From: Henriciella algicola
GTDB taxonomy: Bacteria > Pseudomonadota > Alphaproteobacteria > Caulobacterales > Hyphomonadaceae
Direction: 5' to 3'
Length of the DNA: 64,000 nucleotides
Assembly: GCF_003576245.1 (NCBI RefSeq)
Contig: NZ_QWGA01000003.1
Location: 1,116,001 to 1,180,000, forward strand
Positions within the stretch are counted from its first letter, which is position 1. Every line of letters begins with the position of its first letter. The notes beneath the pieces were generated by a model. It saw nothing but the letters and a program-made list of their open reading frames with translations. It was not told the origin of the DNA and did not search any database. Of the stretch, positions 11,051-12,662 are shown piece after piece. The position numbers were made by a program, and so were the translations under genes.

Positions 11051-11145
11051 CCCCCCAGACCGCTCACCCCCGCGAAGGCGGGGGTCTCAGCCAATTGAAG
11101 TGGGAGATTGCCTCACAAGATCCCCGCCTTCGCGGGGATGAGCGG
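11051..11145. repeat. REP-like repeat, copy 1
   Basis: A 95-bp unit made of two inverted GC-rich hairpins separated by about 45 nt. The first arm centres on CCCCCGCGAAGGCGGGGG and the second on ATCCCCGCCTTCGCGGGGAT, with CCGCTCA at one end and its complement TGAGCGG at the other. The same unit occurs at 12003 and, with base changes, at 12441. It starts 6 nt after the terminator tract. Confidence 0.85.
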
Positions 11146-11169
11146 ATTGTGGACAGGCAGCGTACGGTC

Positions 11170-11472
11170 TCACGAGAACATTTGTGAAAGAAGCACTCCC
11201 AAAGCGGTCACGATGCAACCCGCAATGAAGCTAATTGCCCGGTCCAGCCATCTTGATCTGGCCGATCGCCTTAGTGCTGCCTCGCTCTGTCTCTAAGCAA
11301 TCTCATTCCGCAATCGCATTCGGTACCCCGAATTCAAATCCCGTGGGCCTAGCATTTCGTCCGTAGAGATGAGTTCAACGACCGGAATGGCTGCTATCGC
11401 ATCTTCGCAATCGCGTTTGACCGACGCTTGGAAGACCGCAACGATTTCCTGTCTCCGTAAGTCGGTAATCAT
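11170..11472 (-). pseudogene. 100-codon frame interrupted by one TAG, C-terminal membrane helix
   Basis: From ATG 11472 the frame reads 59 residues (begins MITDLRRQEIVAVFQ), meets a TAG at 11295-11293, then continues in the same frame for 40 more codons to TGA at 11170. The distal part ends in a basic patch and a convincing hydrophobic helix (AISFIAGCIVTALGVLLSQM). A single change of CAG to TAG would explain the break. No good ribosome-binding site is visible. No family was recognised. It may equally be chance or a short 59-residue gene. Confidence 0.3.
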
Positions 11473-11555
11473 GAGCTGTTCACAATGGAATTCGTGGATG
11501 GGCGAGAAAGCGCTGAGTCAAAATGACTCATCCCCGGTTAATTGTTTTCGTGAGA

Positions 11556-11597
11556 TAGAAAAGTGACCGGGCCAACTTTGCGGGCCGACCCGGTCAC
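11556..11597 (-). terminator. Rho-independent terminator after the small basic gene
   Basis: On the minus strand GTGACCGGG pairs perfectly with CCCGGTCAC around an inner GGCC/GGCC pairing, and TTTTC follows. It starts 23 nt after the stop of the 37-residue gene and would end that transcript. Confidence 0.75.
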
Positions 11598-11620
11598 CAC
11601 CGTAAGTCTAGCAAACTAGA

Positions 11621-11734
11621 CTACTTGCAAGGGGCTGGCTTCGAACGTCGATGCGTTTTTACGCGCACTGGTTTCGGGCCGGGCTTCTTGCCGACACGCA
11701 CTTGGCGCGTCACTTGTTTGCAAGATTTTGGCAT
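11621..11734 (-). CDS. 37-residue highly basic small protein
   Basis: ATG to TAG, 37 residues, beginning MPKSCKQVTRQVRVGKKPGP and ending with HRRSKPAPCK. About sixteen Lys/Arg/His, no acidic residue and two Cys suggest a nucleic-acid-binding or ribosome-associated peptide. A near-perfect AAGGAGG lies 9 nt before the ATG; two other ATGs nearby are less well placed. The stop codon lies in a second short hairpin and a terminator follows. No family is recognised. The upstream 250 nt are strongly structured. Confidence 0.6.
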   Translation of the reverse strand: MPKSCKQVTRQVRVGKKPGPKPVRVKTHRRSKPAPCK

Positions 11735-11770
11735 TCGCCATCACCTCCTTCCTCGGGCAGTGGCCCGCGC

Positions 11771-11797
11771 TTAAAGGCGTGCACGAGCGGAGGTCAT
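11771..11797 (-). CDS. Eight-residue upstream ORF (possible leader peptide)
   Basis: ATG-ACC-TCC-GCT-CGT-GCA-CGC-CTT-TAA encodes MTSARARL. An AGGA element lies 4 nt upstream of its ATG. It sits between the structured RNA candidate and the small basic gene, 36 nt before that gene's start codon. Its place and the two Arg codons allow a translational leader role, but a frame this short can arise by chance. Confidence 0.3.
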   Translation of the reverse strand: MTSARARL

Positions 11798-11828
11798 TTG
11801 ATCCTGCGCTGCTATTGGGCCCGATTCG

Positions 11829-11979
11829 AAAGGGAAATTGGAGTCCCTTTGTGGATTAGCGCCCAATGGCGGGACCCCGCCATTAGGCCATAGCCAGCCA
11901 AAGCCCGTTCTGGTTCAGGCGGTCAAGGCTGCCGAAGGCACGGCGTCAGCCGCTCGGCCTTGAGGGCCTGAAACGGGGC
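11829..11979 (-). ncRNA. Structured RNA candidate (leader or small RNA)
   Basis: Three independent folded elements. The main one (11903-11979) has nested helices with symmetric internal loops: GCCCGTT with a bulged partner at 11972-11979; TTCAGGC 11914-11920 with GCCTGAA 11966-11972; TCAAGGC 11923-11929 with GCCTTGA 11957-11963. The last closes two small hairpins, TGCC-GAA-GGCA and CGGC-GTCA-GCCG. Then come a perfect 9-bp hairpin (11865-11884) and a 7-bp hairpin (11829-11850). The strand is inferred from the small gene downstream. It does not match tmRNA, RNase P or SRP RNA motifs that I could check by eye. Confidence 0.5.
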
Positions 11980-12002
11980 GGGCACCTACTAAGTTCGAGA
12001 CA

Positions 12003-12098
12003 CCCCCCAGACCGCTCACCCCCGCGAAGGCGGGGGTCTCAGCCAGTTAAAGTGCGGAGATTGCCTCACAAGATCCCCGCCTTCGCGGGGATGAGCGG
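12003..12098. repeat. REP-like repeat, copy 2
   Basis: Nearly identical to copy 1 over 96 bp, with both GC-rich hairpin arms and the CCGCTCA/TGAGCGG ends, differing at a few bases in the spacer. It ends 11 nt before the stop side of the GIY-YIG gene. Confidence 0.85.
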
Positions 12099-12393: not shown

Positions 12394-12440
12394 GACGTCT
12401 GGTTACGTCCTCTTCTTAAAACCCGCCGTAACTTTCGTAT

Positions 12441-12527
12441 CCGCTCATCCCCGCGCAGGCGGGGATCTCAGCCAATTAAAGTGCAGAGACAGCCTCATGC
12501 GATCCCCGCCTGCGCGGGGATGAGCGG
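12441..12527. repeat. REP-like repeat, copy 3 (diverged)
   Basis: An 87-bp unit with the same plan as copies 1 and 2. Both hairpin cores carry paired changes (CCGCGCAGGCGGGG and CCCCGCCTGCGCGGGG instead of the CGAAG/CTTCG versions), so arm complementarity is kept while sequence differs. It lies upstream of the GIY-YIG start. Between it and the gene at 12663 are about 135 nt with a 14-bp palindrome, TTTCCGACCGGAAA, at 12603-12616. Confidence 0.85.
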
Positions 12528-12662
12528 ACCTCAGAGCAACCTCACCACCACCCCAAAAAACCCAAAACAGTACGCCCCGTACAAACGCACAATCATGGTT
12601 AATTTCCGACCGGAAACAATTTTCCCGTCCGCATATCTCGTGGGTACGGCTATCCTTAATGC

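Follow-up and report, generated by a model that had tools for sequence, protein, structure and literature searches.

The window (the whole stretch of Henriciella algicola DNA that was analysed, 64,000 nt) carries an insertion that sits behind a quinone-oxidoreductase-like gene. The locus aligns with genome G002 as far as position 388, where the alignment breaks off to resume at 1243, and with genome G016 it also runs to position 388 and resumes at 1253. At this oxidoreductase site, G002 and G016 have one REP copy and the window has two, which are 96.9% identical; the approximately 855 bp between the latter contain a palindrome, a small gene and a 59-aa ORF. The features are listed below in the order of their coordinates.

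11051..11145, unstranded: REP copy that flanks the insertion at its lower-coordinate end, with 96.9% identity to the copy at 12003..12098
11148..12001, unstranded: insertion of about 855 bp with respect to G002 and G016 (locus alignment)
11293..11472, minus strand: 59-aa ORF within the insertion, no Pfam match
11562..11598, minus strand: terminator-like hairpin and T-run, 3′ of the small gene
11621..11734, minus strand: gene for a 37-aa basic protein, including the stop codon (ORF and family conservation)
11740..11750, minus strand: extended Shine-Dalgarno sequence AAGGAGGTGAT, an 11-nt match to the complement of the 3′ end of 16S rRNA
11754..11767, minus strand: leader hairpin CGGGC-CACT-GCCCG directly before the Shine-Dalgarno sequence (p 0.29 alone)
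11771..11797, minus strand: 8-codon uORF, probably chance
11831..11852 (approximate), minus strand: 7-bp hairpin AAAGGGA/TCCCTTT, conservation not seen
11855..11990, minus strand: three-way-junction fold and 9-bp hairpin, together one copy of the dispersed bipartite palindrome, model match 141 bits
12003..12098, unstranded: REP copy at the higher-coordinate end, counterpart of the copy at 11051..11145

REP copies occur near 11051-11145, 12003-12098 and 12410-12540, and they border a gene for a GIY-YIG nuclease (PF01541; 12109-12393, minus strand); close relatives have the same GIY-YIG gene and repeats at this site.

An earlier note on this DNA had named most of these pieces. The helices TTCAGGC/GCCTGAA and TCAAGGC/GCCTTGA with their CC/CC internal loops, the 9-bp hairpin (AATGGCGGG/CCCGCCATT), the 7-bp hairpin, the 8-codon ORF (11797-11771), the 37-aa basic ORF (11734-11621) preceded by AAGGAGG (full stretch, AAGGAGGTGAT) and the terminator-like site (11598-11562) are indeed all present on the minus strand. 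The fold, rightly described as structured, belongs to a conserved structured element, and the basic ORF, preceded by a strong ribosome-binding site, is a real gene. The 430-nt minus strand folds better than 100 out of 100 dinucleotide shuffles (z −5.56); terminator-like sites are also common in shuffles, with a mean of 0.8 per region. The assertion that no known family explains the pieces was borne out, as none of the Rfam families reached its gathering score in the window, where two chance-like matches were found at E ≤ 1; in 14 related loci, Rfam returned rRNA, tRNA and SRP RNA only.

The same note had joined the pieces into one functional unit with a coherent transcript plan, and this part of it was not supported. 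Matches to the 430-nt query were found in 12 of 61 genomes (own genome included). Outside the locus itself, nearly all of them fall in bases 1-131 (the repeat); bases 295-422 (gene and terminator) were matched once, in G016, and bases 198-228 once, in G018. Relatives thus match in separate blocks at different places. The fold is a dispersed repeat that occurs in many places without the small gene, and a single transcript plan is not supported. We consider it likely that two independent things, a copy of the palindrome and a small gene of a mobile type, lie in one insertion of ~855 bp between REP copies, in which the palindrome would be a DNA element unrelated to the gene.

With a covariance model, the palindrome was found in 15 of the 29 genomes of the genus and, within the own genome, at five distinct positions. 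The first model (R1) used a poor automatic structure; a second one (R2), which uses a structure of 24 bp plus 13 bp, located it in 28 of 105 genomes of the family, in four of 10 genera. The element is 131-137 bp long and occurs in this genus and in three other genera of the family, mostly between crudely called ORFs, some long ORFs overlapping it. Viral contigs contained no match to the palindrome pattern, and plasmids gave no match either when searched with a copy taken from a different genus.

At the window's site, four of the 17 fetched loci, one of them the window's own, gave a model match to the palindrome; seven of 15 did so at the gyrB site. The genes that adjoin the palindrome differ among loci that share a site; at other sites, it is found 43-161 bp upstream of a same-strand gene. 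Overall, the genes beside it are unrelated and stand in either orientation, the ORF calls of these neighbours being crude. One explanation is that the palindrome marks the end, or a recombination site, of a swapped single-gene cargo, which at this locus would be the small gene; it accords with the change of genes at shared sites and with the presence of palindrome and small gene in one insertion. In addition, 13 of 20 right-hand neighbours have a Pfam match at E ≤ 0.01 (one, SEC-C, is below the cut-off), many of them accessory or anti-phage (AbiTii twice, putAbiC, HNH_2, Nmad2, deaminase, DUF4238, DUF488), and PADLOC models match six of the eight right neighbours tested, some weakly. However, among ten right neighbours from 17 further loci, we found PadR, a lipocalin and a restriction-like enzyme domain, and seven of the ten were unmatched; a blastn comparison revealed no common sequence where the cargo ends away from the palindrome, and sites such as gyrB vary in palindrome-free genomes too. 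We regard the cargo explanation as unlikely. Ten left neighbours included two short-chain dehydrogenases, SlyX, DUF2147, DUF4440 and DUF559, the other four being unmatched.

Two further observations concern these sites. Read by eye, the palindrome in other genomes adjoins a ribbon-helix-helix-like or relaxase-like gene in L211, L214, L216 and L221 and in L220 and L133, hinting at conjugative elements. In the right flanks of L119, L125 and L135, the variable genes are followed by a block of 147-149 bp that three species have in identical form; since Rfam places an SRP (4.5S) RNA at about the place of this block in L003, the site is likely a hotspot beside the 4.5S RNA gene.

To be checked, according to the earlier note, were compensatory changes in the helices. 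We extracted 49 palindrome copies, of which 24 of nearly equal length were aligned and counted; the other 25, the window type among them, are outside this count. On the structure of a 24-bp plus a 13-bp hairpin (37 pairs, 888 cells), the 24 copies form a long imperfect palindrome with 97.7% of the cells paired and double changes in 15 of the 37 pairs (83 such cells). None of 500 shuffles reached the paired share, the double-change counts or the covariation score, a single one attained the count of further pair types; versions of the structure slid along the alignment pair at 26-52%. In the window-type copies (n = 18), a double change occurs in six of 31 predicted pairs, the covariation term is −0.1, and the two inner helices first proposed are almost invariant. 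Compensatory changes therefore exist in the family, but the inner helices of the window type hardly vary, and the pattern of the changes has an explanation at the level of DNA.

Most of the 24 copies have an uninterrupted GTG-to-TGA frame through the palindrome; its final residues are similar to WLWPNGRVCHSA and approach the zinc-ribbon motif found in IS1595 transposases. In several copies, the frame is stopped or shifted, and we do not accept it as coding. A 24-nt stretch of the 3′ hairpin has an exact match in Neorhizobium, in the zinc-ribbon codons of a transposase. Because the model E-values are 0.07-0.36, we leave the resemblance of the 3′ hairpin to part of an IS1595 gene as a possible coincidence.

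The departures from Watson-Crick pairing in the 24 copies comprise 11 G.U, eight A.C and 12 others. By our own reading, 14 of the 24 copies have the loop in one orientation and the other 10 have its reverse complement. Fifteen pairs of copies occupy the same site, the DNA matching for 200 bp or more on either flank, and seven of these pairs show a reversal of the loop (by eye); the 15 pairs are not independent and represent about nine sites, five with a reversal, and repeated DNA may inflate the flank matches. In L184/L185 and L130/L187, both arms have changed together. Template switching yields arm homogenization along with spacer inversion, as described in PMC8604942 and PMC8794818. With G.U and A.C balanced and the loop reversed, as template switching of DNA predicts, the covariation is no proof of an RNA. 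Selection on an RNA from one strand should favour G.U, so that the balanced departures speak against it. We infer that the palindrome acts, if at all, as DNA or as a single-strand-DNA hairpin, with its arms most likely kept complementary and its loop flipped by template switching in replication.

Its retention at the same sites across species may reflect a function, RNA included. The palindrome could be a functional RNA in itself, for instance, a small RNA of accessory regions, which merely adjoins the gene here. The extent of pairing and the double changes given above would suit such an RNA, as would the same-site conservation in the 15 pairs of copies; the missing G.U excess, the loop reversals and the lack of an Rfam match count against it, and we find it distinctly improbable.

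Even more doubtful is the regulated leader or dual-function RNA envisaged at first, with the palindrome as the 5′ part of an mRNA that controls the small gene. The two are on the same strand and in the right order, the fold is very stable, its arms covary, and elsewhere the palindrome is often located shortly upstream of a same-strand gene. Nevertheless, it accompanies unrelated genes in either orientation and has balanced G.U and A.C departures, while the small gene occurs without it: the H. marina and Parvularcula loci that we read have the small gene and no palindrome fold upstream. The uORF, claimed as part of the leader, has no visible counterpart in the leaders of relatives (read by eye, not systematically), and the leaders of L066 and L071 have a bare ATG-TGA where it would be. 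As relatives' leaders lack a visible counterpart, we have set aside a uORF-controlled leader; the 8-codon uORF is probably due to chance.

Turning to the small gene as the second, independent component of the insertion, we identified 48 genome-contig loci that encode a relative of the 37-aa protein. They carry the labels Erythrobacter, Parvularcula, Rhodobacteraceae, Henriciella, Kangiella and Sedimenticola and, further, Zixiibacteriota, Nitrospina, Scalindua, Planctomycetota, Verrucomicrobiales, Acidobacteria and Dehalococcoidia, many of these loci being metagenome bins that may be mislabelled. The distribution is patchy: at E ≤ 0.01, three of 29 genomes in the genus (two strong) and 10 of 299 in the order (four strong) have the gene. 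A large protein search, a method of limited power with queries this short, gave only four sequences. The protein has no match in Pfam, NCBIfam, PHROGs or PADLOC, and no relative was found in viral contigs; among open-licence papers, we found no description of either the palindrome or the small gene. The family thus extends from alphaproteobacteria to bins labelled Planctomycetota, Zixiibacteriota and Dehalococcoidia, and yet is without a family model.

Eleven positions are invariant in 28 sequences, and the median dN/dS is 0.19 (274 of 946 pairs with usable dS); judged by this conservation, the 37-codon ORF is a real gene under purifying selection. Most members share a core, KPGPK.V.VKPH.RSKP, between cysteines near both ends. 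The structure prediction has no secondary structure (mean pLDDT 73.7, pTM 0.15), and the 37-residue cationic two-cysteine peptide is probably unfolded. By gene names read by eye, the relatives in L069 and L097 (two Rhodobacteraceae) are downstream of gyrB, and those in L075, L082 and L087 (three alphaproteobacteria) adjoin the rpsO-pnp region.

The Shine-Dalgarno match amounts to 9-13 nt in 18 of 43 members (11 nt in the window) and to 8 nt at most in control genes of the same loci (n = 255). Hairpins just before the Shine-Dalgarno sequence score 14.1 on average versus 10.6 in shuffles; they are singly significant in nine of 43 members, to which the window's (p 0.29) does not belong, and L085 has the same leader stem and loop as the window. 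TTGAC followed by GANTC is seen upstream of the small gene in L062, L067, L069, L074, L076, L081, L082, L087 and others, an arrangement that resembles promoters of the CcrM/GcrA type; if it is one, the small gene would be tied to the cell cycle. The gene would be transcribed into a short mRNA of its own, with the 11-nt Shine-Dalgarno sequence and the terminator, for a 37-residue peptide that may bind nucleic acid and serve the element carrying it.

With a scoring that is neutral with regard to G.U, 31 of 42 loci have inverted repeats on either side of the gene; the window copy is without one and has the terminator-like hairpin. The motif TTGAC..GANTC is found upstream in 10 of 41 loci and its mirror downstream likewise in 10, as compared to shuffle maxima of two and three; the reversed motifs (five and six of 41 loci) are within the range of shuffles, and TTGAC upstream and GTCAA downstream are found together in only four loci. 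With regard to an RNA reading of the repeats around the gene, which these counts neither favour nor reject, there are 18 G.U versus 10 A.C (p 0.18); the gain from G.U exceeds that from A.C in 25 loci, falls short of it in 14 and equals it in three. That the 37-codon frame is untranslated and its RNA alone matters is extremely improbable: the inverted repeats in relatives and their leader hairpins, which exceed shuffles on average, could be read in this way, but the invariant residues, the dN/dS and the long Shine-Dalgarno sequence contradict it.

Transposases of the IS1595 type are present in nine of the 48 small-gene loci (a raw count), in six cases upstream on the same strand, 130-754 bp away; Pfam detected PF12762 and PF12760 in all five tested. 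The own genome has no IS1595-type transposase. Inverted repeats that would enclose both the transposase and the gene did not clearly exceed shuffles (L099 is marginal, 28 versus 25), and no target-site duplication was seen by eye. Four gammaproteobacterial loci have upstream genes in common; two of the shared proteins were tested, one matching MqsA and the other, weakly, MqsR. The small-gene unit looks mobile, or recently mobile. Tentatively, it could be a self-contained mini-element of about 270-300 bp that has spread across phyla, carried by several kinds of mobile DNA, with a peptide that acts on its own RNA or on the DNA ends of the element; the window copy would be a form that has lost those ends. 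The mirrored TTGAC-GANTC-arm ends would double as the promoter and as a stem closing the mRNA, which would combine a leader hairpin and an exceptionally long Shine-Dalgarno sequence with a cationic peptide of 35-40 residues. If true, this would place it among the smallest mobile genes that code for a protein.

ERIC, REP, Rickettsia palindromic elements and bacterial MITEs are short imperfect palindromes, present several times per genome and mostly intergenic. The palindrome in the window resembles them in form and copy number and, as far as the crude ORF calls show, mostly in position, although some long ORFs overlap it. Unlike these elements, it consists of two hairpins with exchangeable middle arms that stay complementary, has its loop in both orientations at the same site and matches no Rfam family. 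IS1595-type elements may carry passenger genes, and the small gene is reminiscent of these, since a transposase with both IS1595 domains is near it in nine of the 48 loci; it differs in that no clear enclosing terminal repeats were found and most loci have no transposase in the DNA examined. The arm homogenization and spacer inversion of the palindrome are similar to template switching at inverted repeats as presented in PMC8604942 and PMC8794818; the relevant passages of the former deal with coding repeats of yeast and spacer changes of 2-5 bp, whereas here a whole family of dispersed bacterial repeats is concerned. Strong covariation can, accordingly, arise at the DNA level: between related species, the two arms change jointly and the loop at a shared site is turned round. 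Covariation alone is to be treated with caution as proof of an RNA. Finally, the anti-Shine-Dalgarno match of the small gene is unusually long, as in the extended Shine-Dalgarno genes of PMC13009471, but here it is the trait of one small gene family.
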